A model generated the notes under the pieces. That model was not told the DNA's origin, ran no database searches, and saw nothing but the letters and a program-made list of their open reading frames with translations. DNA of 35,660 nucleotides, taken from the NCBI GenBank assembly GCA_029240655.1, contig JARDZW010000008.1, forward strand, positions 1 through 35,660. Reading direction: 5' to 3'. Origin of the DNA: Chloroflexota bacterium (GTDB lineage: Bacteria; Chloroflexota; Limnocylindria; Limnocylindrales; CSP1-4). Below are positions 11,568 to 35,660 of the stretch, in pieces; the first letter of the stretch is position 1; the number at the start of each line of letters is the position of its first letter. Both the position numbers and the translations under genes were made by a program.

Positions 11568-11577
11568 CGTTCGCGCC

Positions 11578-12819
11578 CTAGCCGGCGAGGTAGGGCGTGG
11601 CGACCTCGCAGAACCGCTCGGCGACCCGCCGCGCCGCCGCCTCGTCGTCGCTCATGCGCAGCCCGAACGGCGCCAGGTTCGCGTCGAACACGCCGATGCC
11701 GATGCTCAGCGAGCGTGCCAGCAACGCGTCGGTCAGGGGCAGCATCCCGCGGTAGTAGTCGGCCTCGCCCGTGCCGTAGCAGGAGCAGTCGAAGGGGCAG
11801 CCCTTGCCGCTGACGGTCCGTCGCTGGAGCAGATGCTCCATGTTCGAATAGACGTGCCAGCCGGATGCGTCGAGCGTGATCGAGCCGAGCTCTGTGGCGA
11901 CGTTCCGGGCGACCTCCGCCGAGGGGAAGGTCACCACGAGGTGCGTTGCGAGATCGCCCTCGGGATCCACCACTGTCCGAAAGCCGAGCCCGGGCAGGTC
12001 CGCGATCATCGTCTTCACGATCTTCTTGTTCGCGCGGAGATGCGTCCGGATCAGGTCGAGCTTGCGGACCTGTGCCAGGAGCACCGCGCCCGACAGCTCC
12101 GTCATCCGGAAGTTCATGCCGAGGAACGGGCGCTCCGCGTACTTCGAGCCGAGCCGGTTCGGCGCGTGACCCTGGTCGTGGATCGCGAAGAGCCGGCCGT
12201 ACAGGTCCTCGTCGTCCGTCACGATCATCCCGCCGTCGCCGCAGGTGATGGTCTTGTACTCGTTGAAGCTGTAGACCCCGGTCGCGCCGATGCCGCCGAC
12301 GCCCTGGCCCTGGTACGTAGCGCCGAAGGCTTGCGCGCAGTCCTCGATGATCGGGATGCCGTGGCGGTCGGCGACGTCCTTCAGCTCGTCGAGCCGGGCC
12401 GGCGCCCCCAGCATGTGGACGACGATGATCGCCCGCGTCCGTGGCGTGATCCTCGCCTCGACGTCGGCCGGATCGAGGTTGAATGAGTCATCGACCTCCG
12501 CGAGGACCGGCGTCGCCCGGGCATAGACGATCGCGGAGATCGAGGCGACGAACGTGAAGCCGGGCACGATCACTTCGTCGCCGGGTCCGATCCCCAGTCC
12601 GAGCAGGGAGATCCACAGCCCGCCGGAACCGCCTCCGCTCAGGCCCAGGGCGTACCTGACCCCGGCCAACGAGGCGATCTCCACCTCGACGTGCCGGACC
12701 TTCGCCCCGAAGTCGGGATCGTCGGCACTGCCGTAACGGCTCAGGGAGCGGCTGGTAAGGACCTGCATGACCTCGGCGATCTCTTCCTCGCCGATCAGCT
12801 CTACGCCTGGTCCGGGCAT
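11578..12819 (-). CDS. DegT/DnrJ/EryC1/StrS-family PLP aminotransferase (paralogue 1)
   Basis: GDEVIVPGFTFVASISAIVYARATPVLAEVD...IIEDCAQAFGATYQG...YSFNEYKTITCGDGGMIVTDD (PLP lysine present). True start MPGPGVELIGEEEI at 12819; the upstream extension to 12855 is translated operator. Confidence 0.88.
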   Translation of the reverse strand: MPGPGVELIGEEEIAEVMQVLTSRSLSRYGSADDPDFGAKVRHVEVEIASLAGVRYALGLSGGGSGGLWISLLGLGIGPGDEVIVPGFTFVASISAIVYARATPVLAEVDDSFNLDPADVEARITPRTRAIIVVHMLGAPARLDELKDVADRHGIPIIEDCAQAFGATYQGQGVGGIGATGVYSFNEYKTITCGDGGMIVTDDEDLYGRLFAIHDQGHAPNRLGSKYAERPFLGMNFRMTELSGAVLLAQVRKLDLIRTHLRANKKIVKTMIADLPGLGFRTVVDPEGDLATHLVVTFPSAEVARNVATELGSITLDASGWHVYSNMEHLLQRRTVSGKGCPFDCSCYGTGEADYYRGMLPLTDALLARSLSIGIGVFDANLAPFGLRMSDDEAAARRVAERFCEVATPYLAG

Positions 12820-12838
12820 GCCGGCTCTCCCCTCTATC

Positions 12839-12856
12839 CGTGCAACCGATTGCACG
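12839..12856. promoter_or_regulatory. LacI-family type operator CGTGCAACCGATTGCACG (site 1)
   Basis: 7-bp perfect inverted arms CGTGCAA / TTGCACG with central CG; between divergent genes 11578-12819(-) and 12930(+); near-identical copy at 23041-23056. Confidence 0.75.
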
Positions 12857-12877
12857 GCACCCTACCAGCGCGATAAT
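12850..12877 (+). promoter_or_regulatory. Putative plus-strand promoter: -35 TTGCAC (12850-12855, inside operator 1), 16-nt spacer, -10 GATAAT (12872-12877)
   Basis: GATAAT is 5/6 of TATAAT; -35 is weak and coincides with the operator half-site. Confidence 0.4.
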
Positions 12878-12888
12878 CTGACCGTCAA
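12859..12888 (-). promoter_or_regulatory. Putative minus-strand promoter: -35 TTGACG (12883-12888), 18-nt spacer, -10 TAGGGT (12859-12864)
   Basis: Hexamers read directly; operator 1 covers the expected start site. Confidence 0.4.
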
Positions 12889-12929
12889 CATCGGAGGCTG
12901 GCGGGACGAGCGGAGGGTCGGGAAACGAC

Positions 12930-13823
12930 GTGAGCGATCTCCTCGAACGAGTGGCGGGCGCGCCGATCACGTGGGGCGTGGACGGTTCACCGGGCTGGGG
13001 TTACCTGATGGACCGGGACCGGGTCCTGCGCGAGATGGTCGAAAGCGGCCTCTCGGCAACGGAGCTCGGCCCCGATGGCTACCTGCCGACTGATCCATCA
13101 GAGCTCAGGGACTACCTCGCTCAGTTCGACCTGAGCATCGTCGGCGGCTTCGTGCCGGCCCTGCTGTATCGGCCCGACCAGATCGCGGCCCAGCTCGAGT
13201 ACGTGACGCGGGCGGCACGACAGCTGGCGAGTACGGGCTCCAAGGTATTGGTGCTGGGGCCGTCGTCGCATCATCCCGGGTATGACACGTCGGTCGACAT
13301 GAACGCCGACGAATGGACGGCGTTCCTCACCAACCTGCGGCGCCTCGAGGGTGTCGTCAACGACGCTGGTCTCGAGACCGCCCTGCACCCGCATTGGGGC
13401 ATGGCGATCGAGACCGGCAAGCACATCGACCGATTGCTCGAATCGTCCTCCGTGGGCCTGTGTCTCGACACCGGCCACGTCTACCTGGCCGGCACGGATC
13501 CCGTCGATGTCGCGCGCGCGGCGCGCGGTCGGGTCCTCCACGTCCACCTCAAGGACGTCGACCCGGCCAAGGCCGCGCAGGTTCGGAGCGGCGAGGTCCC
13601 CTTCCGCGAGTCCGTCATCGACGGCCTGTTCGTGCCCCTCGGGCAGGGTGGCGTCGACATCGCCGGGGTGATCGCCGCGCTCGAAGCCGACGGGTACCGC
13701 GGCTGGTACGTCATCGAGCAGGACGTGTCGCTCAAGGGCGAGCCCCCGGCCGGCGAGGGCCCGAAGACGGACGCCGTCGCCAGCGTCGCGTACCTGGGCA
13801 GCCTGGCCGGAGCGCCTGCGTGA
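12930..13823 (+). CDS. IolE-like sugar phosphate isomerase/epimerase (TIM barrel; inosose dehydratase family)
   Basis: APITWGVDGSPGWGYLMDRDRVLREMVESGLSATELGPDGYLP...LHPHWGMAIETGKHIDRLLESSSVGLCLDTGHVYLAGTDPV...HVHLKDVDPAKA; strong IolE/MocC-type signature. Confidence 0.85.
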   Translation: MSDLLERVAGAPITWGVDGSPGWGYLMDRDRVLREMVESGLSATELGPDGYLPTDPSELRDYLAQFDLSIVGGFVPALLYRPDQIAAQLEYVTRAARQLASTGSKVLVLGPSSHHPGYDTSVDMNADEWTAFLTNLRRLEGVVNDAGLETALHPHWGMAIETGKHIDRLLESSSVGLCLDTGHVYLAGTDPVDVARAARGRVLHVHLKDVDPAKAAQVRSGEVPFRESVIDGLFVPLGQGGVDIAGVIAALEADGYRGWYVIEQDVSLKGEPPAGEGPKTDAVASVAYLGSLAGAPA

Positions 13824-14743
13824 GCCAGCGGGCAGTGAGCGGCCTCGAGTCGACGTGCGTCCTCCCGGTGGGGGCCATGCTGGGTGAGTGCCCGACCTGG
13901 AACCCCGCCGACGCCCGGCTCTACTGGATCGACATCGACGGCCGGGCGATCCACCGGTACGACCCGGCGTCCGGTCTCGACGAGCAGCGTCCGACCCCGG
14001 GGCGTCCTGGCTCGCTGGCCCTCACCGCCACCCCGGGACGACTCCTCGTCGCGCTGGAGGGCCGGCTCGGCTTCTTCGAGTGGCCCTCGGGAGCTTGGAG
14101 TGACTGGATCGCGCTCGAGCCGGAGGGGCTCGGCAATCGCCTCAACGACGGGCGATGCGACCCGGCCGGCCGTTTCTGGGTCGGGTCGATGTTCGATCCC
14201 GCCGCGGCCGGCAAGACCACGGGGCTGCTCCATCGGATCGAACCGGACGGATCGGCGGTCACGGTGCGGTCGCGGATCGGCGTGGCGAACGGGCTCGCGT
14301 TCTCGCCGGACGGGCGAACGATGTACTTCGCCGACACCCACCGCGAGACCGTCTGGGCCTACGACTACGACGTCGATACCGGCGCGGCGACCAACGAGCG
14401 AGTCTTCCTGGACTTCGGGCCGTTGCCGGGCCGGCCGGACGGGGCGGCCGTCGACGAAGCCGGCTGCTACTGGATCGCCTGCGTCACGGGCGGGACGGTC
14501 CTGCGGATCACGCCGACGGGGACCATCGATCGGCGGATCCGCGTGCCGGTCTCGAAACCGACGATGCCGGCGTTCGGCGGCCCGGGTCTCGGGACGCTGT
14601 TCATCACCACGATCGGTGGCGGTGGATCCCACGGGGTCGACCCGAGCGAGCCCGACGCCGGCGGCCTCTTCGCGCTCGAGCCCGGTGTGAGCGGGTTGCC
14701 CGAGCCGCAGTTCGCCGGCGGTCCAAGCGCGGGGGTGATGTGA
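13820..14743 (+). CDS. SMP-30/gluconolactonase/LRE-family protein
   Basis: MLGECPTWNPADARLYWIDIDGRAIHRYDP...NRLNDGRCDPAGRFWVGSM...NGLAFSPDGRTMYFADTHRETVWAYDYD; GTG start at 13820 overlaps upstream stop. Confidence 0.9.
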   Translation: MSQRAVSGLESTCVLPVGAMLGECPTWNPADARLYWIDIDGRAIHRYDPASGLDEQRPTPGRPGSLALTATPGRLLVALEGRLGFFEWPSGAWSDWIALEPEGLGNRLNDGRCDPAGRFWVGSMFDPAAAGKTTGLLHRIEPDGSAVTVRSRIGVANGLAFSPDGRTMYFADTHRETVWAYDYDVDTGAATNERVFLDFGPLPGRPDGAAVDEAGCYWIACVTGGTVLRITPTGTIDRRIRVPVSKPTMPAFGGPGLGTLFITTIGGGGSHGVDPSEPDAGGLFALEPGVSGLPEPQFAGGPSAGVM

Positions 14744-15741
14744 GCGCGGCGACGCTTCCGCCGGTCTGGTTCGAGCGACCGGTGCTCGCCGAGCTCGCGG
14801 CGAGCGTGGCGGCCCGATGCACGATCCTGGGACCGGCCACGGGCGACGACCCGTTCGCCGGCCTCGGCACGGCCATCGCCGCGGTCGTGGGGGCCGCGCC
14901 GTACGGCGACACGGCGATGGAGCGCGCCCCGGGACTGGTAGTCATCGCCCGGACCGGCATCGGCTACGACGCGATCGACGTCGCGGCCGCGACCCGACGC
15001 GGGATCCTGGTCTGCAACACGCCCGACGGCCCGACGATCTCGACGGCCGAACATGCGGTCACGCTGATGTTGCTCGTCGCCAAGAACGTGAAGGCCGCCG
15101 AGGGCGCGCTCCGGGCCGGCAGCGCGGCGGGCTACTACAGCCGCCACGACGGCATCGAGCTCGATGGGAAGGTCCTTGGCCTGGTCGGCTTCGGTCGGAT
15201 CGCGCGGCATGTCGCCCGGATCGCCGCTGGCCTCGGGATGCGCGTCGCGACCTTCGACCCGTACCTCCCCGCCTCCGCCGTGCCCGCCGGGATCGACCGG
15301 GCGGACAGCCTCGACGCACTCCTGGCGGGCGCCGACGTCGTGTCCGTGCACGTCCCCCTGACCGACGAGTCGCGCGGCCTCTTCGGTGCCGCCCAGTTCG
15401 CGGCGATGAAACCGGGCGCCGTATTCATCAACACGGCCCGCGGCGGTCTGGTGGACCAGGGCGCCCTCCTCGGCGCGCTCGATGCTGGGCACCTGTTCGG
15501 CGCGGGCCTCGACGTCACGTCGCCGGAGCCGCTCCCCCCGGGCCATCCGTTGCTGGGTCGCGACGACGTCGTCGTCACCCCGCACGTCGCCTCCGCGACC
15601 GCGGACGGCAAGGCGCGCGTCTTCCGGGTTGCCTTCGAGGCGGCCATGGCCGCTGTCGAGGGGCGCCGGCCGGAACATCTGGTCAATCCCGAGGTCTGGG
15701 AGCGCAACGCATCGGCGCCGTACGCAGGAGTGGGCAAGTGA
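14740..15741 (+). CDS. D-isomer specific 2-hydroxyacid dehydrogenase (NAD-binding)
   Basis: ARTGIGYDAIDVAAATRRGILVCNTP...GKVLGLVGFGRIARHVA...VHVPLTDESRGLFG...FINTARGGLVDQGAL...VVTPHVAS; GTG start at 14740 overlaps upstream stop. Confidence 0.9.
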   Translation: MSAATLPPVWFERPVLAELAASVAARCTILGPATGDDPFAGLGTAIAAVVGAAPYGDTAMERAPGLVVIARTGIGYDAIDVAAATRRGILVCNTPDGPTISTAEHAVTLMLLVAKNVKAAEGALRAGSAAGYYSRHDGIELDGKVLGLVGFGRIARHVARIAAGLGMRVATFDPYLPASAVPAGIDRADSLDALLAGADVVSVHVPLTDESRGLFGAAQFAAMKPGAVFINTARGGLVDQGALLGALDAGHLFGAGLDVTSPEPLPPGHPLLGRDDVVVTPHVASATADGKARVFRVAFEAAMAAVEGRRPEHLVNPEVWERNASAPYAGVGK

Positions 15742-16913
15742 CGAAGACGATCGGGATCGGCGTGGTCGGATTCGGGTGGATGGGGCAGGCGCACAGCCGC
15801 GCCTACCGCGACATCCCGGTGTACTTCGCGGAGACCGCGATCCGGCCCCGACTCGTGGCGGTCGCGGACAACGTCCCAGACCGGCTCGACCTCGCCCGCG
15901 ACAATTTCGGGTTCGAAGCGGGGCACCTCGACTGGCGCGAGCTCATCGCCCGTGACGACGTCGACGTCGTCGACGTCACGGCGCCCAACGCCCTTCACCG
16001 CGAGATCGTCGAAGCCGCGGCGGCCGCGGGCAAGCACATCGCGTGCGAGAAGCCCGTGGGCATCGATCCCGAAGCGACGGCCGCGATCGAGCTCGCAGGC
16101 CGGCGGGCGGGCGTCGTCACCGGCTGCGGCTACAACTACCGCTGGGCGCCGCTCGTGCAGCACACCCGCCAGCTCATCGCGGACGGCCGCCTGGGCGACC
16201 TGACCCATTACCGCGGGCGGTTCTTCTCGATGTACGGCCGCGACCGGTTTGGCCTGCTGTCGTGGCGCTTCCTCCAGGAAGAAGCCGGCTACGGGGTCCT
16301 GAGCGACCTCATGTCCCACGCGATCGACATGGCCCAGTTCCTGTGCGGACCGATCAGCCGGGTCGTCGCGGTCAAGGAGACCTTCATCAAGCAACGACCC
16401 CTGCCGACGCCCGGCTCAGGCACGCACTACGAGCGTGGCAAGCCCGACGACCCGACCGGCGCGGTGACCAACGAGGACTATGTCGGGGCACTGGTCGAGT
16501 TCGAGAGCGGGGCGCGCGGCACGCTCGAATGCGACCGATCCATCGTCGGGCCGCAGAGCTCCATGGCCTTCGAGCTCAACGGCTCCAAGGGCGCCATCGG
16601 GTGGGATCACGAGAAGCTCAACCAGCTGCGGCTGTACCTTCCCGAGGAGCAGCCCAACGACGGGTTCATCGAGGTCCTCGGCGGCGACGCCTTCCCGAAC
16701 CACGGGAACATCGTCCCGGGCGGCGGCAACTCGATCGGCTACGAGGACATGAAGCTGATCGAGGCGCTGGCGTTCCTCAAGTCCGTCGCCGCGGGGCAGC
16801 CCCACGATCCGGGCTTCACGCAGGCCCTGGCCAACGCTTCGGTCGCCGCGGCGATGGTCCGTTCGTGGTCGTCGGGGGCTTGGGAGGACGTCGTCAGTCT
16901 GCGCATCGAGTGA
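15738..16913 (+). CDS. Gfo/Idh/MocA-family oxidoreductase (paralogue 2)
   Basis: GIGVVGFGWMGQAHSRAYRDIPVYF...HIACEKPVGIDPEATAAIELA...LLSWRFLQEEAGYGVLSDLMSHAIDMAQFL; GTG start at 15738 overlaps upstream stop. Confidence 0.88.
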   Translation: MTKTIGIGVVGFGWMGQAHSRAYRDIPVYFAETAIRPRLVAVADNVPDRLDLARDNFGFEAGHLDWRELIARDDVDVVDVTAPNALHREIVEAAAAAGKHIACEKPVGIDPEATAAIELAGRRAGVVTGCGYNYRWAPLVQHTRQLIADGRLGDLTHYRGRFFSMYGRDRFGLLSWRFLQEEAGYGVLSDLMSHAIDMAQFLCGPISRVVAVKETFIKQRPLPTPGSGTHYERGKPDDPTGAVTNEDYVGALVEFESGARGTLECDRSIVGPQSSMAFELNGSKGAIGWDHEKLNQLRLYLPEEQPNDGFIEVLGGDAFPNHGNIVPGGGNSIGYEDMKLIEALAFLKSVAAGQPHDPGFTQALANASVAAAMVRSWSSGAWEDVVSLRIE

Positions 16914-16926
16914 GGTACTCGCCGGG

Positions 16927-17688
16927 ATGCTGAAGAACACGACGAAGGCGAAGCTGGCCGAGGGAAAGGCCGTCTTCGGCTGCTTCGTCCGGACCGCCGA
17001 GCCGTCGCTGATCGAATACGTCGCCCTGCTCGGCTGGGACTTCCTCGTGCTCGACGCCGAGCATGGGACGCTCCTGCCGAACCAGGTCGAGGACCTGTGC
17101 CGGGCCATCGAACCGCGCGGGGTGACGCCGATGGTGCGGGTGACCACGAACGACCCCCCGACGATCCTGCGCTACCTCGATACGGGCGCGCACGGCGCCC
17201 ACATCCCGTGGGTCAACACCGCCGCGGAGGCCGAGCGTGCCGTGCAGTCCGTGAAGTACTCGCCTCGCGGCATCCGCGGGCTGGCCGGCAGCCGGGCGTC
17301 GGAATGGGGCCTGCGCGAACCCCTGAGTGACTTCGTCGCGCGCTCCAACCGCGAAACGCTCGTCGTGGTCCAGGTCGAGACCCAGGACGCCGTCGACGCC
17401 ATCGACGACTATCTGGCGATCGATGGCGTGGACGTGCTGTTCCTCGGGCCGACCGACCTCAGCCAGTCCCTGGGTCATCCCGGGGATCTGCGCCATCCCG
17501 ACGTCCTGGCCGCCATGGACCGCGTCGCGTCGGCCGTCGTCGGATCGGACAAGGTGCTCGGGATCTACGCGGGCACTGCGGACATGACGCGCGAGTGGCT
17601 GGATCGCGGGGCACGCTACTTCACGACCTCACTGGAGCCGTTCCTCCGGGATGGCATGACCCGGCACCTGGAGCACGTTCGAGGATGA
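16927..17688 (+). CDS. HpcH/HpaI-family class II aldolase
   Basis: FGCFVRTAEPSLIEYVALLGWDFLVLDAEHGTLLPNQVEDLCRAIE...PWVNTAAEAERAVQSVKYSPRGIRGLAGSRAS...VVVQVETQDAVDAIDDYLAIDGVDVLFLGPTDLSQSLG. Confidence 0.9.
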   Translation: MLKNTTKAKLAEGKAVFGCFVRTAEPSLIEYVALLGWDFLVLDAEHGTLLPNQVEDLCRAIEPRGVTPMVRVTTNDPPTILRYLDTGAHGAHIPWVNTAAEAERAVQSVKYSPRGIRGLAGSRASEWGLREPLSDFVARSNRETLVVVQVETQDAVDAIDDYLAIDGVDVLFLGPTDLSQSLGHPGDLRHPDVLAAMDRVASAVVGSDKVLGIYAGTADMTREWLDRGARYFTTSLEPFLRDGMTRHLEHVRG

Positions 17689-17695
17689 CGAAGCC

Positions 17696-19540
17696 ATGAA
17701 GACGATCAGGCTGACCACCGCCCAGGCCATCGTGAAATGGCTGCTCGCGCAGCGGACGCGGATCGACGGCGAGGACGTGCCGATCTTCGCGGGCGTATTC
17801 GCGATCTTCGGCCACGGCAATGTGACGTCCCTGGGCGAGGCGCTCGAACCGGTCCAGGAGGAGCTGCCGACCTACCGCGGCCACAACGAGCAGTCGATGG
17901 CCCTCGCCGCGGTCGCCTACGCCAAGGCGATGCGGGGCCGGCGGATCATGATCGCGACCTCGTCGATCGGTCCCGGCTCGACGAACATGGTGACCGCCGC
18001 CGCTGTCGCCCACGCCAACCGCCTGCCGGTCCTGCTGTTCTCGGGCGACACCTTCCAGCACCGGATCGTCGACCCCGTGCTCCAGCAGGTGGAACACTTC
18101 GATGACCCGACGCTGACCGTGACCGATACGTTCAAGCCCGTGAGCCGCTACTGGGACCGGATCACGAAGCCCGCCCAGATCGTCCGGTCGCTGCCGCAGG
18201 CCCTCGCCGTGATGCTCGACCCGGCCACACGCGGCCCGGCCTTCTTCGCGCTGCCGCAGGACGTCCAGGCTGAGGCGTACGACTTCCCCGAGCGATTCTT
18301 CGAGCCGAAGGTCCACTACATCCGCCGGCCGGGCCCCGATCCGCGCGACGTCCAGGCCGCCGCGGCGCTCATCGAGCGTGCCAAGCGACCGCTCATCGTC
18401 GCCGGGGGTGGGGTCCACTACTCGGGCGCCGTCGACGTTCTGCGAATCTTCGCGGAGCGCCATGCCATCCCGGTCGTCGAGACGGTCGCGGGCAAGTCGA
18501 CGCTCACGCACGACCACCCGAACTACGCCGGCCCGATCGGGGTTACCGGATCGACCGCCGCGAATGCCGTTGCCGAGCAAGCCGACGTCGTCATCGCCGT
18601 GGGGACGCGGCTCCAGGATTTCACGACGGGCTCCTGGTCCGTGTTCAAGGATCCGGATGTCCGGTTCGTCGCGATCAATACGGCCTCGTGGGACGCGCAC
18701 AAGCAGGGGGCGCAGCCGGTCGTCGGTGACGCCAAGGTGTCGCTCGAGGCGATCGACACCGCGCTCGGCACGCACGCAGCACCGCCCGAGTGGCTGTCGA
18801 TGGCCGACGAGCGTATCGCCGAGTGGCACGCTTATCTCGACTCGTGGTCCGGGCGGAAGCATGACGGCCCGCCCGCCTACGCCGAGGTCATCCAGTCCAT
18901 CAACACGGCCGCCAGCCCCGAGGACTACATCGTTTCCGCGGCCGGTGGCCTGCCCGGCGAGCTGAGCATGGGCTGGCGCTCCAAGGGCATCGGCACGTTC
19001 GACTCGGAGTACGGCTACTCGACGATGGGCTACGAGATCGCCGGGGCGTGGGGCGCCCGGATCGCCCGGTCGACGGGTGAGGTCATCGCCTGGGTCGGCG
19101 ACGGCTCGTACCTGATGATGAACTCGGACATCTACTCGACGGTGATGACCGGCCAGAAGGTCATCTTCATGGTCTGCGATAACGGCGGCTTTGCGGTCAT
19201 CAATCGGCTCCAGGTCAACACCGGCGGGGCCGAGTTCAACAACCTGCTCCGCAACACGAACCACGAGCGCTACTTCCAGGTCGACTTCGTGAAGCACGCC
19301 GAATCGATGGGCGCGGTCGCCGAGCGGGTGGACAGCGTTGCCGATCTCCCGGCGGCGTTTGCCCGGGCCAAGGCCGCCGACCGGAGCTACGTCATCGTCG
19401 TGCCCGTCAGCGAGTACACCTGGACCGAGGGCGGCGCCTGGTGGGAGGTCGGCGTCCCTGAGGTCAGCGAGCGGGCCGGGGTACGCTCCGCCCGCGAGGA
19501 CTGGACGGCGAAGAAGCAACACCAGCGCGTGGGAGTCTGA
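17696..19540 (+). CDS. iolD: 3D-(3,5/4)-trihydroxycyclohexane-1,2-dione acylhydrolase (decyclizing)
   Basis: MKTIRLTTAQAIVKWLLAQRTRIDGEDVPIFAGVFAIFGHGNVTSLGEAL...; TPP motif GDGSYLMMNSDIYSTVMTGQKVIFMVCDNGGFAVINRLQ; full-length IolD. Confidence 0.94.
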   Translation: MKTIRLTTAQAIVKWLLAQRTRIDGEDVPIFAGVFAIFGHGNVTSLGEALEPVQEELPTYRGHNEQSMALAAVAYAKAMRGRRIMIATSSIGPGSTNMVTAAAVAHANRLPVLLFSGDTFQHRIVDPVLQQVEHFDDPTLTVTDTFKPVSRYWDRITKPAQIVRSLPQALAVMLDPATRGPAFFALPQDVQAEAYDFPERFFEPKVHYIRRPGPDPRDVQAAAALIERAKRPLIVAGGGVHYSGAVDVLRIFAERHAIPVVETVAGKSTLTHDHPNYAGPIGVTGSTAANAVAEQADVVIAVGTRLQDFTTGSWSVFKDPDVRFVAINTASWDAHKQGAQPVVGDAKVSLEAIDTALGTHAAPPEWLSMADERIAEWHAYLDSWSGRKHDGPPAYAEVIQSINTAASPEDYIVSAAGGLPGELSMGWRSKGIGTFDSEYGYSTMGYEIAGAWGARIARSTGEVIAWVGDGSYLMMNSDIYSTVMTGQKVIFMVCDNGGFAVINRLQVNTGGAEFNNLLRNTNHERYFQVDFVKHAESMGAVAERVDSVADLPAAFARAKAADRSYVIVVPVSEYTWTEGGAWWEVGVPEVSERAGVRSAREDWTAKKQHQRVGV

Positions 19541-19542
19541 GG

Positions 19543-20331
19543 GTGGTGGGGGACTTCGACGATCGGGTGGTCGTCATCACGGGCGCCGCGTCCTTCGTGG
19601 GCGAGGCGATCGGCGCCGACCTGGTGGCCGCCGGCGCCCGCGTGGTCCTGGGTGATCGCGATGCGGACCACGGCGCGTTCGCGGCGGCGCGCCTGGGCGA
19701 TTCGGCTCGCTTCGTCGAGACGGACGTGTCTCAGGATGCCGATCTCGACCGGCTCATCTCGAGCGCGCTCGACGAGCACGGTCGGCTCGATGGGGTGGTC
19801 GGCGTCGCCGCCGATTTCGACGACCAGCTACTCGCCAGCACGCGTGAGCTGTGGGACCGCGTCCTCGACGCCAACGTCGCGTCGGCCGCGATGCTCACGA
19901 CGAAGGGGGCCGCGGCGATGTCCGCGGGCGGCGCCATCGTGCACATCGCCTCGGTGAGCGGACATATCTCACAGCCGGCCCACGTCGTCTACAACGTGTC
20001 CAAGGCCGCGTTGCTCATGCTCGTGAAGAGCTCGGCGCATCACCTCGCCCCGCGCCGCATCCGCGTCAACGCGGTCTCGCCAGGCTGGATGTGGAGCCGC
20101 AACATCGAGCGGCGCTACGGCACCCGGGAACGGGCCGACGCCCTGGCCGCGGAGTTCCAACCGCTCGGTCGGATGGCGGATCCGGAGGAAGCTGCGCACG
20201 CCGTGGCGTTCCTGCTCTCGGACCGTGCGTCGTTCATCACCGGCGCCGAGCTGCTGGTCGACGGTGGCTACTCGACGATCGGTCCCGAGGCGCTCGGCCA
20301 GCCATTCGAGAAGGTCCGGACGATCGAATAG
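19543..20331 (+). CDS. SDR-family NAD(P)-dependent oxidoreductase
   Basis: RVVVITGAASFVGEAIGADLVAAGARVVLGDRD...VYNVSKAALLMLVKSSAHHLAPRRIRVNAVSPGWMWS...ASFITGAELLVDGGYS. Confidence 0.9.
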   Translation: MVGDFDDRVVVITGAASFVGEAIGADLVAAGARVVLGDRDADHGAFAAARLGDSARFVETDVSQDADLDRLISSALDEHGRLDGVVGVAADFDDQLLASTRELWDRVLDANVASAAMLTTKGAAAMSAGGAIVHIASVSGHISQPAHVVYNVSKAALLMLVKSSAHHLAPRRIRVNAVSPGWMWSRNIERRYGTRERADALAAEFQPLGRMADPEEAAHAVAFLLSDRASFITGAELLVDGGYSTIGPEALGQPFEKVRTIE

Positions 20332-27463: not shown

Positions 27464-28319
27464 CCGAGCTGATCCGCTCGAGACGATGCCCGTCAGCCGC
27501 CATGGGGGCACGGTGCGCTGGTCGCTGCGGCTGGTGTTCGGAGCCCTGATCGTGTTCCTGTACCTGCCGATCCTCTTCATGGTCGTGTTCTCGTTCGACG
27601 AGGGCGCCACGCCGGGCCTGCCGATCACGGGCTTCACGCTCCATTGGTACGAGGCCATGCTCAACAACCGGGTCCTGCTCCGGGCGGTGGGCAATTCGAT
27701 CATCGTGGCGGTCATCGTCTCTATCCTGGCGACGATCATCGGGACCATGGCCGCCTTCGTCCTGGTCCGCGCCCGCATCCGCTTCCCGAACGCCACGCGC
27801 ATCGCGTTCACCCTCCCGATCATGGTCCCGGGCGTGCTGATCGGCGTGTCGCTGCTGATCTACTTCGCGCGCGTGCTGGACTTCTCGCTCTCGCTGGGGA
27901 CCGTGATCGCCGGACACCTCGTGGTCACCGTGCCGTTCGTGGTCCTCATCGTGGCCAGCCGGCTACAGAGCTTCGACCGATTCCTCGAGTGGGCTGCCGC
28001 GGACCTCGGTGCGTCGCCCCGCCAGGCGATCCGCCACATCGTGCTGCCCCTCATCGCCCCGGCGATCCTGGCCGGCGCCTTGATCAGCGTGACGTTGTCG
28101 ATCGACGAGTTCGTCATCACGTGGTTCACGGTCGGCTCGCAGCCAACGCTGCCGACGTTCATCTACACGCGGGTGAAGTTCGGGGTCACCCCGGAGGTCA
28201 ATGCCGTCGCAACGGTCATGCTGGTCCTTACGCTCGGGACGCTCGGTCTGGCCGGGGTCGCCATGGGTCGCGCGCGGCGATTGACCGGCCGGATGCGACG
28301 ACGGCGGCAGGCTGGCTGA
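27456..28319 (+). CDS. PotC-like ABC transporter permease
   Basis: EWAAADLGASPRQAIRHIVLPLIAPAILAGALISVTLSIDEFVITWFTVG; overlaps upstream permease by 8 bp (start possibly further downstream). Confidence 0.88.
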   Translation: MASRADPLETMPVSRHGGTVRWSLRLVFGALIVFLYLPILFMVVFSFDEGATPGLPITGFTLHWYEAMLNNRVLLRAVGNSIIVAVIVSILATIIGTMAAFVLVRARIRFPNATRIAFTLPIMVPGVLIGVSLLIYFARVLDFSLSLGTVIAGHLVVTVPFVVLIVASRLQSFDRFLEWAAADLGASPRQAIRHIVLPLIAPAILAGALISVTLSIDEFVITWFTVGSQPTLPTFIYTRVKFGVTPEVNAVATVMLVLTLGTLGLAGVAMGRARRLTGRMRRRRQAG

Positions 28320-29347
28320 TGCGGGCCGCGGTCTTCAAGGGCGCCGGCGTCCTTGCGCTCGAGGACGTCCCGGAGCCGGCGGTCGACGCCGACGACGACG
28401 TCATCATCGAAGTCGAGGCGTGCGGCATCTGTGGCAGCGACCTCCAGATCCTCAACGTCCCGCCGGGCCACCCCGCGGACCCCGGCGTGATCCTGGGTCA
28501 TGAGTTCATCGGCCGCGTGACCGCGCTGGGGAGCAGCGCGGGCGCTGGAGCGCTCGAGGTCGGGCAGCGCGTCGTGGTCGACCCGGACCCCAAGTGCGGC
28601 ATGTGCGGTCCGTGCCGCGCGGGACGCCCGGCCAGCTGCGAGAACATCCGCGCGCTCGGTGTCTTCCAGCATGGAGCCCTGGCGCCGCTGATCAAGGCGC
28701 CGGCCGAGTTCACGTTCCCACTCTCGGAGGCGCCAGCGGCGGCGATCGCGTCGCTCATCGAGCCGCTCGCCTGCGTGGTCAACAGCGTCAACAAGGCGAA
28801 CCCGCGGCCAGGTGAGTCGGCGATCATCTTCGGGGCCGGCGCGATCGGCTGCCTCTTCCTCGCGATGTTCAAGGCGGCTGGTGCGGGCCCGGTCATCGTC
28901 GTCGAGCCGCAGGCCCCGCGCGCGGCCGTCGCCAGGTCCGTCGGGGCCGACATCGTGGTCACGCCCGACGAGCTGGACGCTGCAAGGCGTTCGCTGCTGC
29001 CGCATGGCGCGGATGTCATCGTCGATGCCGTGGGCAGCCAGCTCGGGACGGCCATCGAGCACGCGGCCCTCGGCGGCCGCATCGCCCTGTTCGGGATGAA
29101 CCAGACGGCCCGACCGGCGGTCCAGCAGTACACGATCACCGAGCGCTCACTGTCGGTCCTCGGCACCTACATCACGGCCTTCACCTTCCCGACCGCGATC
29201 CGGCTCGTCGAGGGTGGCACCCTGCCCCTCGAGCCGATCGTCACGCACGTCCTGCCCCTCGAACGGGTGGGCGAAGGTCTCGACCTGCTGCGGTCCGGCA
29301 GCGCGACGAAGGTCGTGATCACGCCCGGCGCCGCCCCAGCTTCGTGA
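28319..29347 (+). CDS. Zinc-dependent medium-chain dehydrogenase (sorbitol/threonine dehydrogenase-like)
   Basis: EACGICGSDLQILNVPPGHPADPGVILGHEFIGRV...DPKCGMCGPCRAGRPASCENI; structural Cys4 site present; ATG at 28319 overlaps the permease stop by 1 nt. Confidence 0.9.
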   Translation: MRAAVFKGAGVLALEDVPEPAVDADDDVIIEVEACGICGSDLQILNVPPGHPADPGVILGHEFIGRVTALGSSAGAGALEVGQRVVVDPDPKCGMCGPCRAGRPASCENIRALGVFQHGALAPLIKAPAEFTFPLSEAPAAAIASLIEPLACVVNSVNKANPRPGESAIIFGAGAIGCLFLAMFKAAGAGPVIVVEPQAPRAAVARSVGADIVVTPDELDAARRSLLPHGADVIVDAVGSQLGTAIEHAALGGRIALFGMNQTARPAVQQYTITERSLSVLGTYITAFTFPTAIRLVEGGTLPLEPIVTHVLPLERVGEGLDLLRSGSATKVVITPGAAPAS

Positions 29348-29609: not shown

Positions 29610-30920
29610 TCAGGCAGGGATCGGCGGAGCCCCGACCGTCTCCATGATCCGCTCGGGATCCGCCAGCACCTCGCGGATGGTCGCGGCGTAGGCCTCGATG
29701 ACCTCGACCGGCTGGACGAAGATCGGGTGCTTCATGTCGCAGATCACGAGCGACGAGTCGAGAAGTGCCGTCGCCTCCGGGAAGTCCGCGACGTCGTAGG
29801 TGATGTCGCGGCCGGCCGGCGGCTGCGTCCACGGGAACGCTCCGCCGAAGCCCTCGCGGTTCTGGAAGATCGGGAAGGCCGGTGCCGGTTCGGTGTGCCA
29901 TAGCTCACATCCGACGCCCAGGGCCTGCAGGGTTTGGCCGAGCGCATCCCGAAAGACGGTCGGTTGTACGTGACCGAGACCGATCGCGGCAGGATCCAGG
30001 CGGACCCGGTACTCGTAATAGCTCGACGTCCGATCGGGCGGGATGTACGGCGGCGTGATGCCGGGCACGTCGGCCAGCTGCTCGGTCAGGTACGCGGCAT
30101 TCCGCTGACCCGTCGCGACGTACTCGGGCAGGCGCTTGAGCTGCGAGCGTGCCAGCGCCGCGGGCATCTCCTGGTGGCGGTAGTTCCAGCCGACCGAATG
30201 CACCGTGTAGGGCCGGAAGTTCCAGCCGGTCAGCTTCCCGAGCTCCGGGATGTCCTCGCCGAACGTACGCAGACGTCGCGCCCGCCCGATGATGTCCGGG
30301 TCGTCGGCGACGAACAGGCCGCCCTCGCCACCGGTCAGGATCTTGCTCGAGTTCAAGCTGTAACAGCCGACCGTGCCCATGGACCCGACCTGTCGTCCCT
30401 TGTACGTGGCGCCATGCGCCTGGCAGGCATCCTCGATGACGTGGAGGCCGTGTCGGTCGGCGATGTCAAGGATCTCGTCCATGTCGCAGGGCAGGCCCTG
30501 GATGTGGACCGCGATGATCGCCCGCGTCCGCGGGCCGATCCTGGCCTCGATCTGACGGGCATCAAGCGTGTACGTCCGCGGATCGATGTCGACGAAGACG
30601 GGGATGCCGAGCTGCTGGAGGATCGGTTGCCAGGTTCCGGCGAAGGTGAACGACGTGGTGATGACCTCGTCGCCCGGCCGCAGGTCGATGCCGTACAGCG
30701 CGGCGTGGATGGCGGCCGTCCCGGAGTTGAAGAGCAGGCCGGTCGAGCGCCCGACGAACGCGGCCCATTCGTTCTCGAGGGCGGTCGATTCGGGGGCGCC
30801 GACGCCTCCGAGGATCTCGCGATCGAGCACGCTCATGACCGCGGCCTTGTCCTCCGGGCGGATGTCGGGCCAGCGGCGCTTCAGGCCCTCGGAAACACGG
30901 GTGCCATTGCGGGAATCCAT
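29610..30920 (-). CDS. DegT/DnrJ/EryC1/StrS-family PLP aminotransferase (paralogue 2)
   Basis: GDEVITTSFTFAGTWQPILQQLGIPVFVDIDPRTYTLD...VIEDACQAHGATYKGRQVGSMGTVGCYSLNSSKILTGGEGGLFVADD (PLP lysine present); start MDSRNGTRVSEGL at 30920. Confidence 0.88.
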   Translation of the reverse strand: MDSRNGTRVSEGLKRRWPDIRPEDKAAVMSVLDREILGGVGAPESTALENEWAAFVGRSTGLLFNSGTAAIHAALYGIDLRPGDEVITTSFTFAGTWQPILQQLGIPVFVDIDPRTYTLDARQIEARIGPRTRAIIAVHIQGLPCDMDEILDIADRHGLHVIEDACQAHGATYKGRQVGSMGTVGCYSLNSSKILTGGEGGLFVADDPDIIGRARRLRTFGEDIPELGKLTGWNFRPYTVHSVGWNYRHQEMPAALARSQLKRLPEYVATGQRNAAYLTEQLADVPGITPPYIPPDRTSSYYEYRVRLDPAAIGLGHVQPTVFRDALGQTLQALGVGCELWHTEPAPAFPIFQNREGFGGAFPWTQPPAGRDITYDVADFPEATALLDSSLVICDMKHPIFVQPVEVIEAYAATIREVLADPERIMETVGAPPIPA

Positions 30921-31003
30921 GGGTGGGGGTCCGTTCTGGTACGGCGTGACGGTGGCTCGATCGTACAGCACGGCGCCCTCGTCAAACAGGCCCGTCTCGC
31001 CCC

Positions 31004-31885
31004 TTACGCTGACCCGTTCCGCCCGAACGGCAAGCGTGGATCGACCGCCCCCTCCGCCCAGGTCGCGCGGACCCAGGCATGGGCCGGATCGTCGCAGGCG
31101 CGCCACGCGCGCTCGCCCGGTCCCGCCATCACATTGAGGTAATACAGGTCGTAGCCCGGGGCGGCCATCGCCGGCCCGTGCCAGCCGTGCGGGACCAGGA
31201 CGACGTCGCCGGTCCGGACCCTCGTGAGCAGCTCGATCGGGCGAGCGGGCGTGCCGTAGACATGCTGGTACGCGAGCCCGGGGCCCGCCGGACCATCCGC
31301 CACGACGTAGTGATAGATCTCTTCGAGCTCGGTTTCGTCCTCGCGCATCTCGTCGTGCTTGTGGGGTGGATACGACCCCCAGTTGCCGCCCGGGCTCAGC
31401 ACTTCGACCGCGATGAGCCGGTCCGCATCGAATCCGTCCGGCCTGGCGAAGTTGCGGACCTCGCGGGAGCTGACGCCCGCCCCGCGCAACTCGATGCCGA
31501 CCGCCGACGCGGCGACATGGCGCACCGGATAGCCCGGCTCCGCGCGGGCGGTCGCGACCGCGAAACGACCTCCGGCCGCGCTTTCGACCTGGATCGACGT
31601 GCTTGGGGGCGCGTAGAGGAAATCGGACGGGCCGGCCCAGACGCTCAGCCGGCCCGACAGGCGATAGCGCTCGCCGTCGGCCACGACGTCGAACCCTCCT
31701 TCCAGCGGCAGCACGGCGACCTCGTCACCGGCGGTGTCGAACGCCAGCGAACCGCCCGGTTCGAGGGCGCCGACGCGCAATCCCGAGAAGTGCCAGCCCG
31801 CCGACTCGGGTGTCAGGACGACCGACCAGCCGTCCGCCGCCAGCGATCCGGCGGGCCGGTAGAGGTTCGTCGCGACCTCGGTCAC
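31004..31885 (-). CDS. iolB: 5-deoxy-glucuronate isomerase
   Basis: GWHFSGLRVGALEPGG...NWGSYPPHKHDEMREDETELEEIYHYVV...VLVPHGWHGPAMAAPGYDLYYLNVMAGPGERAW; full-length IolB; GTG start overlaps the transaldolase stop. Confidence 0.94.
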   Translation of the reverse strand: MTEVATNLYRPAGSLAADGWSVVLTPESAGWHFSGLRVGALEPGGSLAFDTAGDEVAVLPLEGGFDVVADGERYRLSGRLSVWAGPSDFLYAPPSTSIQVESAAGGRFAVATARAEPGYPVRHVAASAVGIELRGAGVSSREVRNFARPDGFDADRLIAVEVLSPGGNWGSYPPHKHDEMREDETELEEIYHYVVADGPAGPGLAYQHVYGTPARPIELLTRVRTGDVVLVPHGWHGPAMAAPGYDLYYLNVMAGPGERAWRACDDPAHAWVRATWAEGAVDPRLPFGRNGSA

Positions 31886-33015
31886 GACGGGGTCGCGAGA
31901 TCCGGGTTCGGGACGAGCGCATCGGCGACCTGGTGGAGCAGCTCGTGATACGACCCGACGAACGCCCGGAGCGTCCGGGCGCTGGGACCGAACGCATCGA
32001 ACTCGTCGGGCGTCATCCCGTCGGGCTCGTAGGCGCGCACGAAATCCGGGAACCGGCTCTGCAGCTCATCGAGGACCGCCGGATCGATCGGATCGTCCAT
32101 CCGCGGCCGAACCTCGACCGACGACGCATTGAACCGGCGCTGCCAGGCCGACGGCATGGTCAGCACGACATCCCCGCCGATCAGCTCGGACCAGTGCAGG
32201 TGGTGCCGGATCGCCGCCCCGAGCGGCCGGGCCCGCAGGCCGCGTGCCTGGAACTCGGCCACGGTGCGCTTGAACACGGCGACTCCGGACCACGGGAGGG
32301 CCGCCGGATCCGCGACGATCCCGTCGCGCTCGGTCTGGACCTTCAGCCAGTCCTCGAGCCGGCCCATCATCACCGTGATGACCGGGCCCATGTCGTCGAC
32401 CGGAAGGCCGTCGGCCTCCCGCCGCCGCAGCCCGCGCTCGACGGCCTCGCCGGCCGCGACGGCCTGGGGCACGCTAAATGACACCGTGGCGTTGACGTTG
32501 ACGCCGCGGTAGGTCGCCTCCTCCATGACCCGGACGCCGACGTTGGTGGCCGGGAACTTGACGATGATGTTGGGTGCCAGCGAGGCGAAGTGCTCGCCCT
32601 GGGCGAGCATCCGGTCGAACGAGCGGAACAGGGTGGGATCGGTCTGCATCGAGAGCCGGCCCTGGCGCCCGCCGGACGCCTCGAAGGCCGGGAGGAGCAG
32701 TGGAGCCGCGCGGAGCGACATCGCCTCGACGATGGCCCAGGCGAGGTCGATCTCGGTGGCAGCCGGGAGGTCCTCGGCGAGCGTTCGAACGCGGCCGCGC
32801 CAGTGCTTAGGATCGGCTTTCCAGACATCCGCCACGATCGTCGGATTGGCGGTCGCGCCGACTGCCCCGAACGAGATCGCGTATTCCAGCTCATCGACCG
32901 CGCAGGAGTCGTTCCAGATGTCGGTCGCGGTCGTGGCGATCGTGCGCCCCAGCGGGCTGTCCGCGAGCGCCAGCCCGGCGCCCTTCGCCATCGTCTCCGT
33001 GGGCCCTGCCACCAT
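31882..33015 (-). CDS. Transaldolase-family protein
   Basis: VGATANPTIVADVW...GRLSMQTDPTLF...NIIVKFPATNVGVRVMEEATYRGVNVNATVSFS; Schiff-base Lys context (VKFPATNVG) present. Confidence 0.88.
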   Translation of the reverse strand: MVAGPTETMAKGAGLALADSPLGRTIATTATDIWNDSCAVDELEYAISFGAVGATANPTIVADVWKADPKHWRGRVRTLAEDLPAATEIDLAWAIVEAMSLRAAPLLLPAFEASGGRQGRLSMQTDPTLFRSFDRMLAQGEHFASLAPNIIVKFPATNVGVRVMEEATYRGVNVNATVSFSVPQAVAAGEAVERGLRRREADGLPVDDMGPVITVMMGRLEDWLKVQTERDGIVADPAALPWSGVAVFKRTVAEFQARGLRARPLGAAIRHHLHWSELIGGDVVLTMPSAWQRRFNASSVEVRPRMDDPIDPAVLDELQSRFPDFVRAYEPDGMTPDEFDAFGPSARTLRAFVGSYHELLHQVADALVPNPDLATPS

Positions 33016-33076
33016 GCATCCTCCCGCCGATCCGGCATTGACACTCGCTGGTGCCGCACGATACCGTCCGCGAACA

Positions 33077-33104
33077 AGCGTAAACGATTACGCCGCACGC
33101 GCAA
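33077..33104 (-). promoter_or_regulatory. Putative promoter for the transaldolase-iolB unit: -35 TTGCGC (33099-33104), 16-nt spacer, -10 TACGCT (33077-33082)
   Basis: Hexamers read on the minus strand; overlaps operator 33079-33092. Confidence 0.4.
33079..33092. promoter_or_regulatory. LacI-family type operator CGTAAACGATTACG (site 3, divergent in sequence from sites 1 and 2)
   Basis: Inverted repeat CGTAA-ACGA-TTACG with central CG, in the intergenic space between transaldolase (-) and the IolE-like gene (+). Confidence 0.65.
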
Positions 33105-33205
33105 GGAGGGGCGTTGACCCGGTCGTCAGCGCGTCGCGCAGGCTCCACCGTCTCGTCCGGGCCAGCGCACGGGCTGGCGTGTGACACCGCGGATGGAGCC
33201 CGCGG

Positions 33206-34186
33206 ATGAGCACCGTCACAGCGTCCCGTCTCGAGCCGCGGGCCTCGCTCCGCGGACCCGACGACGCGTTGCCACGGGCATCGATCGGGACCGCACCCAT
33301 GCTCTGGGGCAACGCCGACGGCGCCCCTCGCGAAGGCACGGACGCGATGACGATCCTCGATGAGATCGCGCGGGTCGGGTACGAGGGCACCCAGCTCGGA
33401 GACGGATTTCCTGAGGGAGCCGCGATCCGGGAAGCCCTGCGCGAGCGGGGACTGCGCCTCGCCGAGGTCTACGTCCCGATACCTGCGACCGTCGACGGTC
33501 CGGCCGCCGACGCGCTCGCCATCGCCGAGGAGCGACTGCGGCTGCTGCACGACGGCGAGGGCGAGGTCCTCTGCCTGGCGATCGACGGATCCCCCGATCG
33601 CGACGCGTCAGCGGGTCGGGCGGGCGAGCCGGGGACGCCGGCACTCACCGATGCAGGCTGGGAGTCGCTTGTCGCGCTCATCCACGCCATCGCCGACCGG
33701 GCGGCCGCACTCGGCCATCCCGTCGTCTTCCACCCGCACGGCGGGACGTTCATCGAGACACCGGCCGAGGTCGAACGGCTCGTGGCCGCGACCGACCCGA
33801 AGCGCATGAGCATCTGCCTGGACGTCGGGCACTACGTCGTGGGTGGCGGCGATCCCGTGGCGGCGATCCGCGCCCTGGGCGACCGGGTCACGCATGTGCA
33901 CCTCAAGGACGTCGATCCCGCGGTCCTCGTCCGGCTGCAGACCGGCGCGCTCGACGGGCTCGGTCACGCGATCCGCGAGCGGGTGTTCACGGAGCTCGGC
34001 GCGGGGATCCTCGACCTCGACGGCGTCATCGCCGCGCTGGCGGAGCTGGACTACGCGGGCTGGCTGATCGTCGAACAGGACACCACCTGGGCGCCACCGT
34101 CGGAGAGCGCGGCGATCGGGCGGCGCGTCCTCGCGTCGACCTTGCGCCGGCTCGGCACGGCCGGCTCGCCGGAGGCCCGGCCATGA
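33206..34186 (+). CDS. IolE/MocC-like sugar phosphate isomerase/epimerase (paralogue 2)
   Basis: APMLWGNADGAPREGTDAMTILDEIARVGYEGTQLGDGFPEG...FHPHGGTFIETPAEVERLVAATDPKRMSICLDVGHYVVGGGDPVAAIRALGDRVTHVHLKDVDPAVL. Confidence 0.87.
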   Translation: MSTVTASRLEPRASLRGPDDALPRASIGTAPMLWGNADGAPREGTDAMTILDEIARVGYEGTQLGDGFPEGAAIREALRERGLRLAEVYVPIPATVDGPAADALAIAEERLRLLHDGEGEVLCLAIDGSPDRDASAGRAGEPGTPALTDAGWESLVALIHAIADRAAALGHPVVFHPHGGTFIETPAEVERLVAATDPKRMSICLDVGHYVVGGGDPVAAIRALGDRVTHVHLKDVDPAVLVRLQTGALDGLGHAIRERVFTELGAGILDLDGVIAALAELDYAGWLIVEQDTTWAPPSESAAIGRRVLASTLRRLGTAGSPEARP

Positions 34187-35181
34187 GAGTCGCGCTGCTC
34201 GGTGCCGGGCGCATCGGCCGGCTCCACGCTCGCCTCCTCACGTCCACCCCGGGCATCGACTCGCTCCTTGTCGCCGATGTCGACGCGGCTCGTGCCGCCG
34301 AGGTCGCGAAGGAGGTCGGCGCAACGGTCGCTCCGTCGATGGACGCTGCCCTCGATGGAGCAGAAGCGGTCGTCATCGCCGCGGCCACCGGCGCCCACGC
34401 GGAACTGATCCGCGCGTCGATCGGCCGCGGGCTGCCGACGTTCTGTGAGAAGCCGCTGGCCGGCAACCTCGAGGAGACGATCGCTCTCGCCGGGGACATC
34501 GAGCGATCCGGAGCGGCGTTCCAGCTCGGGTTCCAGCGCCGGTTCGACCCGGCCTACCGCGAGGTCTACCGGCTGGTCCACAGCGGTGAGCTCGGGACGC
34601 TGTACGCGGTCCGCCTTGCGGGCCATGACCCGGAACCGGCGCACGAGGCCTACATCGCCCAGTCGGGCGGGATCTTCCGCGACTTCTCGATCCACGACTT
34701 CGACGTCCTGCGCTGGATGACCGGTTGCGAGGTCGAAGAGGTCTACGCGGACGGCGGCGTCCGGCAGTTCCCGGTCTTCGCGAAGTACCTGGACGTCGAC
34801 ACGGCCGTGGTCACCCTCCGTCTCGCCGACGGGCCGTTCACGGTGATGACCGTGACCCGCCACGATCCGCTCGGATACGACATCCGCGCCGAGATCTTCG
34901 GCTCCCGCGACAGCGTCTCCGTCGGCCTCGGGCCGCAGACGCCGTTGCGCTCCGTGGAGCCGGGTGTGCCTCCGCCTGCGGGACCCGCATGGAAGGACTT
35001 CCTCATGCGCTTCGAATCGGCCTATGCTGCCGAATTCGTGGCGTTCGTCGCGATGGCTCGCGGCGAAGCCATCAGTCCTTGCACGGCACGGGATGGCGTC
35101 GCCGCATTGCGCGTGGCGGAGGCGGCCGATCGAGCGCTCCACGAACACCGCGTCGTGCGGCTCGCGGAGATCCCCGGCTGA
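34183..35181 (+). CDS. iolG: Gfo/Idh/MocA-family oxidoreductase, likely inositol 2-dehydrogenase type
   Basis: [19 protein letters not shown]...[52 protein letters not shown]...[20 protein letters not shown], close to IolG pattern; ATGA overlap with upstream IolE-like gene. Confidence 0.75.
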
Positions 35182-35204: not shown

Positions 35205-35321
35205 ATGGCGGCCCTCGGTGGCCGCGTCCAAGCAGGGTTCCTTGGGACTCGCCCGCCGGGCGGGACTCGAACTGGGTCCGTGGCACCCGTCACGGTCATT
35301 GGAGGAGAACGAACGGCATGA
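35205..35321 (+). CDS. Candidate 38-aa small ORF / leader peptide
   Basis: AAGGAGGTG Shine-Dalgarno with 5 nt between AGGAGG and ATG 35205; [38 protein letters not shown]; stop overlaps downstream ATG (ATGA, 35318-35321). Confidence 0.4.
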
Positions 35322-35660
35322 ATCTGCGAACCAGGACGCTCGCGGCGCTGGCCGTCGGGGCGATGATCGTCGGGGCCTGCCAGGCAGGTACCCCGACCGG
35401 CAGCGGCGCCGCGGCCGGTGGCCTCGACGGCGCACTCGTCAAGCGCAGCGACATCAAGATCGAGATCGTCACGCACGGCCAGGCCCAGGATGGGTTCTGG
35501 GGCGTCGTGCGCAACGGCGTCAAGGCCGGCGCCGCCGACATGGGTGTGACCGCGACCTACAGCGCCCCTGGCGCCGAGAGCGACATGCCCGGCATGTCCG
35601 CCCTGATCGATGCCGCGGTCGCCAAGAAGCCGAGCGGGCTCGTCGTGTCCATCCCGAACG
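35318..35660 (+). CDS. Sugar ABC transporter substrate-binding lipoprotein (Peripla_BP_4-like), partial (runs off right edge)
   Basis: [29 protein letters not shown]... lipobox; [74 protein letters not shown] upstream. Confidence 0.85.

Follow-up and report, generated by a model that had tools for sequence, protein, structure and literature searches.

The window analyzed here, a 35,660-nucleotide stretch that is one entire contig (C1) of a Chloroflexota draft metagenome-assembled genome (MAG; G000, 2.75 Mb, 71.5% complete), encodes a transaldolase-like protein (TAL) next to iolB and other genes of myo-inositol catabolism. An original prediction from the sequence of the window held that TAL might act directly on 5-dehydro-2-deoxy-D-gluconate (DKG), the product of IolB, and replace the IolC kinase and IolJ aldolase. 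Among the explanations we considered, the best for these soil and water Chloroflexota, held with moderate confidence, is that TAL is a specialized inositol-pathway transaldolase that bypasses IolC and IolJ. Genome-wide searches and the corresponding loci of relatives (related MAGs named Chloroflexi, at 65-78% identity) stand in for the flanks of the contig.

The TAL-iolB locus

The stop codon of TAL and the GTG start codon of iolB overlap in the bases GTGA at 31882-31885, as predicted. The two genes run divergently from an iolE-iolG pair (Table 1), and the intergenic gap (33016-33205) contains a LacI-type operator, GTAAACGATTAC. This element is the single match in the window even when one mismatch is allowed, with 0.14 expected in shuffles, and it recurs upstream of iol genes in the related loci L038, L039, L047, L048, and L086 (two copies). 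All 7 matches in the 554 kb formed by the window and related loci lie in an iol promoter, in line with the operator-bearing common promoter that had been proposed. No PfkB kinase, class II aldolase, or aldehyde dehydrogenase was found among the window open reading frames (ORFs) scanned with Pfam, and the claim that the window holds no IolC-, IolJ-, or IolA-like gene stands. A confidently scored iolD lies on the same contig, 11.5 kb from iolB.

Table 1. Features of the window relevant to inositol catabolism
Feature	Position	Strand	Evidence and remarks
Transaldolase-like protein (TAL), 377 aa	31882-33015	minus	Contains VKFPATNVG; PF00923, 111 bits
iolB, 5-deoxy-glucuronate isomerase	31004-31885	minus	TIGR04378, 276 bits (cut-off 205); GTG start
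iolE-like inosose dehydratase	33206-34186	plus	TIGR04379, 174 bits (below cut-off 290); PF01261; position kept in related loci
iolG-like inositol dehydrogenase	34183-35181	plus	TIGR04380, 298 bits (below cut-off 355)
LacI-type operator GTAAACGATTAC	33080-33091	none	Common divergent promoter of TAL-iolB and iolE-iolG
iolD, trihydroxycyclohexane-dione hydrolase	17696-19540	plus	TIGR04377, 840 bits (cut-off 715); second gene group of the window
Sugar ABC transporter substrate-binding protein, 5' part	35303-35659	plus	Downstream of iolG; cut by contig end

The truncated substrate-binding protein shares 50% identity (tblastn) with one in locus L084 that is likewise encoded beside iolG. Downstream of iolB lie genes for a DegT-type aminotransferase (29610-31106) and an IolM-like dehydrogenase (27644-29347; scyllo-inosose 3-dehydrogenase, below cut-off), which possibly serve the use of amino- or scyllo-inositol. 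The apparent overlap of the 498-aa aminotransferase ORF with iolB was rejected as an over-extended start, the DegT match beginning only at residue 81. A further region (10509-20331) encodes Gfo/Idh dehydrogenases, a DegT aminotransferase, an IolE-like protein, an SMP-30 lactonase, a hydroxyacid dehydrogenase, an HpcH aldolase, IolD, and an SDR protein, and we regard it as a second sugar-acid or inositol gene group.

Family, fold, and active site of TAL

The Lys motif named in the original prediction lies in an ORF that falls well within PF00923, the transaldolase/fructose-6-phosphate aldolase superfamily (cut-off 27 bits). TAL nevertheless scores far under all curated NCBIfam transaldolase cut-offs, and those for fructose-6-phosphate aldolases (FSAs) are likewise unreached. 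Its AlphaFold model is confident (pLDDT 93.7); the top Protein Data Bank (PDB) match is the transaldolase of C. glutamicum (3r5e; TM-score 0.79, 22% identity), and all 50 PDB matches listed are transaldolase-family structures. The barrel fold and the superfamily residues, namely the Schiff-base Lys, Asp, Asn, and Thr, are present and place TAL in the superfamily. Across 68 TAL sequences, Lys153 (the Schiff-base residue), Asn57, Gln124, Thr177, Arg219, and Arg270 are invariant, Asp36 is found in 66, and Met216 in 67; Thr214 is also among the active-site residues. The TAL copies of L034, L035, and L039 share 71-75% identity with that of the window.

Compared with TalB, TAL carries Gln for Glu96, Met for Phe178, Thr for Ser176, and Ala for Ser226, and retains Arg181 and Arg228 as Arg219 and Arg270. 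In TalB these two arginines hold the sugar phosphate. Of the hallmarks of classical transaldolases (EC 2.2.1.2), the phosphate-binding Arg pair is thus present in all 68 sequences, and the catalytic Glu (TalB E96) is replaced in all of them by Gln124, which aligns with the Glu of 3r5e and with that of the housekeeping transaldolase encoded by the same genome. TAL also departs from the Gln-Tyr pair of FSA (Q59 and Y131), in that the Gln is present and the Tyr position is occupied by Met216.

Distribution and neighborhoods of TAL and IolC

G000 encodes IolA (MMSDH; contig C153, 711 bits), IolB, IolD, IolE, and IolG. A genome search with the IolC model TIGR04382 gave a top score of ~101 bits (cut-off 300), and class II aldolases (IolJ type included), Cgl0159, DUF2090, and a LacD-like aldolase (of the type found beside IolC in relatives) were absent by genome search. 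The original prediction had stated that a functional iolC and iolJ at another place in this genome would overturn the bypass, which survives this search. One further transaldolase is present, of housekeeping type with canonical residues; the iolB-linked copy is therefore specialized.

We extended these searches to 177 genomes of the class, looking for IolB, TAL, IolC (counted at ≥220 bits), Cgl0159, class II aldolase, DUF2090, MMSDH, and LacD-like aldolase. IolB had a match in 85 genomes, and its partners differed by family. In families f1/f4, TAL occurs in 54 of 64 IolB genomes and IolC in four of them, whereas in f3/f5 IolC occurs in 19 of 21 and TAL in none; one sister family alone has IolC in 18 of 20 iolB genomes, again with no TAL. 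The f3/f5 loci hold IolC in the cluster instead, several with an adjacent Cgl0159 or LacD-like aldolase. When a pair was defined as TAL within 500 nt of an IolB gene on the same strand, 38 IolB genes in 37 genomes qualified. None of the 38 has IolC within 10 kb, and a single genome (G015) encodes IolC at all, in a separate module. The same 37 genomes include 4 with a class II aldolase, none with Cgl0159 or DUF2090, and 31 with MMSDH. Co-occurrence thus supports the replacement of IolC within the class (Fisher test over the 85 genomes, p ~1e-7), although the split follows families and so represents few independent events. Completeness is ≥90% in 17 of the iolB-TAL genomes; 14 of these have no IolC, class II aldolase, Cgl0159, or DUF2090, and 11 lack a LacD-like aldolase as well. 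We therefore reject MAG incompleteness as the explanation for the missing IolC: near-complete carriers lack it too, while sister families of similar completeness have it.

Ten family-f1 genomes with an IolB-like match but neither TAL nor IolC were counted neither for nor against replacement. Loci L100-L104 (genus g3) are of this kind, four of them from those f1 genomes; they contain no other iol gene of the searched panel, and their IolB-like genes (~212 bits, model positions 12-247) probably represent another isomerase family.

The neighborhoods of TAL provide information about its product. Among 97 TAL loci of the class, iolB is directly beside TAL in 38, and iolA lies within 300 nt on the same strand in 15, comprising 5 iolB-TAL-iolA operons (L087 and relatives) and 10 loci without adjacent iolB. 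Since TAL adjoins the gene for the malonate semialdehyde-consuming enzyme even where iolB is missing, malonate semialdehyde is the likely product. On the TAL tree, linkage to iol genes appears in several deep branches, with gene orders as varied as TAL-iolB, iolD-TAL-iolE, iolB-TAL-iolA, and TAL-iolD.

Split transketolase genes occur within iol clusters (L109:5789-7587, L080:15506-17397, L087:3410-5229, L113:7827-9758) and perhaps mark a transketolase-type route parallel to sulfo-TK; those of L109 are flanked directly by iolB and iolD. TAL copies lacking iolB (L049, L051, L053, L088, L091, L095) lie beside a split transketolase, a pyruvate-dehydrogenase-like E1, or MMSDH; L088 and L091 also encode GntR regulators and a molybdenum-hydroxylase-like FAD subunit. 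In most of the loci L038-L048, L084, L085, L090, and L098 (e.g., L045:956-2773), a divergent thiamine-diphosphate enzyme is encoded between iolE and TAL or beside iolE. It resembles acetolactate synthase models more closely than IolD, occupies the place of a true iolD (as in L036 and L038), and is probably a second type of IolD.

Linkage of TAL to iol genes extends to Actinobacteria, including Arsenicicoccus, Propionibacteriaceae, Frondihabitans, Curtobacterium, Agromyces, and others. IolC scores over its cut-off in 11/11 actinobacterial genomes, and where IolC and Cgl0159 stand alongside TAL, TAL is an addition and not a replacement; it may serve a parallel route there or act on another substrate. 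Agromyces sp. Soil535 and Curtobacterium sp. Leaf261 are among the carriers of both TAL and iolC. The case for a bypass is accordingly strongest in Chloroflexota families f1/f4 and does not extend to the subfamily as a whole. In iol clusters of Actinobacteria and of some Chloroflexota, the gene for a Cgl0159-like protein (PF22649) adjoins iolC or lies close to it (L054:19126-19929, L057:15767-16612, L061:7929-8876, L065:1529-2434, L112:6956-7813), and the protein is likely the aldolase for DKG-6-phosphate (DKGP) there; our literature search found no paper tying Cgl0159 to inositol. Several actinobacterial iol clusters also carry a TauE/SafE-family exporter gene beside TAL or iolD (L057:13063-13809, L061:11088-11873).

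A candidate transaldolase route, its alternatives, and known systems

Viewed from the ketone, DKG matches D-fructose in the hydroxyl configuration of the two carbons on either side of the cleaved bond, and it carries a free CH2OH beside the keto group; the stereochemical argument of the original prediction is correct on established stereochemistry. In the route we favor, IolG, IolE, IolD, and IolB would convert myo-inositol to DKG, whose keto group would form a Schiff base with Lys153 of TAL. Cleavage of the C3-C4 bond would release malonate semialdehyde, which IolA would convert to acetyl-CoA, and the dihydroxyacetone unit would pass to glyceraldehyde-3-phosphate to give fructose-6-phosphate (or to erythrose-4-phosphate to give sedoheptulose-7-phosphate). 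Phosphofructokinase and fructose-bisphosphate aldolase would regenerate the acceptor. TAL would thereby stand in for IolC and an IolJ-type aldolase, at equal ATP cost and net balance.

This predicted substrate, acceptor, product, and replacement of IolC and IolJ build on what the sequences contain: the family and fold of TAL, its retained Lys and both Arg, the operon with iolB, the linkage to iolA, and the fact that most carriers have neither IolC nor a known DKGP aldolase. The bypass as originally proposed gained from the genome search, the co-occurrence, and the iolA linkage, and lost ground to the actinobacterial loci with IolC and Cgl0159 beside TAL and to the Glu-to-Gln replacement.

Several other observations also weigh against the bypass. 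About half of the TAL loci in the class have neither iolB nor iolA adjacent, and some of them carry split transketolase and pyruvate-dehydrogenase-like genes. With neither the transaldolase Glu nor the FSA Tyr, the acid-base chemistry of TAL is unexplained; we speculate that the carboxylate of DKG aids catalysis in place of Glu. LacD-like aldolases occur in 7 of the 37 iolB-TAL genomes, and other families of PfkB kinase are represented, such that an unrecognized kinase-aldolase pair may exist. The contrast between f1/f4 and f3 amounts to little more than one or two evolutionary events, and the genomes are drafts. Eight actinobacterial loci hold TAL and IolC together with a Cgl0159 protein in the aldolase place. 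Finally, a TAL relative in Faecalicatena is induced by sulfoquinovose and not by inositol (PMC11659671).

TAL could instead be an FSA-like DKG aldolase that yields malonate semialdehyde and free dihydroxyacetone, the latter passing to a dihydroxyacetone kinase, with no sugar-phosphate acceptor. Identical product and gene linkage would be expected, and aldolase activity has been proposed for the Faecalicatena relative from its active-site substitution (PMC11659671). However, the Tyr that confers aldolase activity is Met in all but one of the 68 sequences, and the invariant phosphate-site Arg pair would be needless without phosphorylated partners, unless it holds the DKG carboxylate. We consider this explanation unlikely. 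A similarly low probability attaches to an auxiliary role for TAL, in sugar-phosphate rebalancing or on a ketose from another inositol isomer, with inositol degraded by other kinase and aldolase genes. The complete IolC modules alongside TAL in Actinobacteria, the association with split transketolase in several loci, and distant kinase and LacD-like aldolase pairs in some genomes (e.g., G010 and G003) would fit such a role; the canonical housekeeping transaldolase already present, the tight operons of TAL with iolB and with iolA, and the finding that 14/17 near-complete carriers have neither an IolC-grade kinase nor a known DKGP aldolase argue against it. Least probable is that TAL replaces only the IolJ aldolase by acting on DKGP made by an unrecognized kinase, an idea suggested by the adjacency of the subfamily to IolC in Actinobacteria and by distant PfkB proteins in Chloroflexota. 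Against it, transaldolases bind the glycerone end of a substrate through a free CH2OH, and since DKGP is phosphorylated at that end it would be poorly used. Actinobacterial loci already contain Cgl0159 as an aldolase candidate, and none of the iolB genes that adjoin TAL has an IolC-grade kinase within 10 kb.

Inositol, a plant sugar alcohol, is when derived from phytate an abundant carbon source in soil. If the bypass is correct, whole Chloroflexota families use an undescribed inositol route and are undercounted in work such as the large genome survey of PMC9430895, which defined an inositol cluster as at least three of iolB, iolC, iolD, and iolE in one determinant within 10 kb. That survey counted iolC among four core genes regarded as essential and put a missing core gene down to gaps, assembly errors, or frameshifts. 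The window falls outside its definition, having iolB and iolE close together, a distant iolD, and no iolC; L038 groups iolB, iolD, and iolE, also without iolC. The bypass would also carry over to a carboxylated sugar acid the principle of the sulfo-TAL pathway, in which a single transaldolase does the work of a kinase and an aldolase, and would give an uncharacterized transaldolase subfamily, including the Faecalicatena orphan, a testable substrate class. We judge as evenly balanced the broader proposal of a transaldolase-type inositol pathway in Chloroflexota, in which a Gln/Met subfamily would move glycerone from unphosphorylated DKG to glyceraldehyde-3-phosphate, dispensing with IolC and IolJ and possibly using the DKG carboxylate as base, while its relatives in Actinobacteria, Clostridia, and sulfoquinovose clusters would act on related donors.

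A transaldolase shortcut in the inositol pathway appears to be previously undescribed; our search of the open literature found no paper linking a transaldolase to the iol pathway, and one on Propionibacterium freudenreichii names both as unrelated proteins. Relative to the IolG-E-D-B-C-J-A pathway of Bacillus subtilis, G000 has the G, E, D, B, and A steps in common, whereas IolC and IolJ were not found there and a transaldolase is encoded beside iolB. TalB and 3r5e share with TAL the barrel fold, the Lys, Asp, Asn, and Thr, and both phosphate-site Arg, and differ from it in sequence (~22% identity to TAL) and at the four TalB positions given above.

A close parallel to the proposed reaction is that of the sulfofructose transaldolase SftT/BmSF-TAL of the sulfo-TAL pathway. 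SftT is ~220 aa long, has the Glu, and carries Trp in place of the phosphate-binding Arg, unlike the longer TAL with its Gln and retained Arg. The two match at a phmmer E of 1e-4 across just 76 residues, and the substrate of SftT is sulfofructose, that proposed for TAL being DKG. Membership of TAL in the SftT group was rejected on residues (the catalytic Glu E61 and the sulfonate-orienting W138 in BmSF-TAL versus Gln124 and Arg219; PMC11659671). A nearer relative comes from Faecalicatena sp. DSM22707, in which Borusak et al. (2024; PMC11659671) described two sulfoquinovose-induced transaldolases. The second candidate, F2 (IMG 2956859251), has D23, Q111, K140, N162, and T201, with W138R relative to BmSF-TAL, and its authors doubted activity on sulfofructose and proposed an aldolase instead (PMC11659671). 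These residues correspond to D36, Q124, K153, N175, and T214 of TAL at a constant offset of 13, and W138R to Arg219; judged by this published residue spacing only, F2 very probably belongs to the TAL subfamily. It differs in that it sits in, and is induced with, a sulfoquinovose cluster, with no iol context reported (PMC11659671).

The likeness between SftT and TAL lies in the shared fold superfamily and, on the reading proposed for TAL, in one transaldolase taking the place of a kinase and an aldolase. SftT transfers glycerone from a C6-modified ketose to glyceraldehyde-3-phosphate, yielding fructose-6-phosphate and a C3 aldehyde, in parallel to the reaction proposed for TAL. The proposed inositol route would be a variation on this known type of pathway, with chemistry that is not of a new kind.
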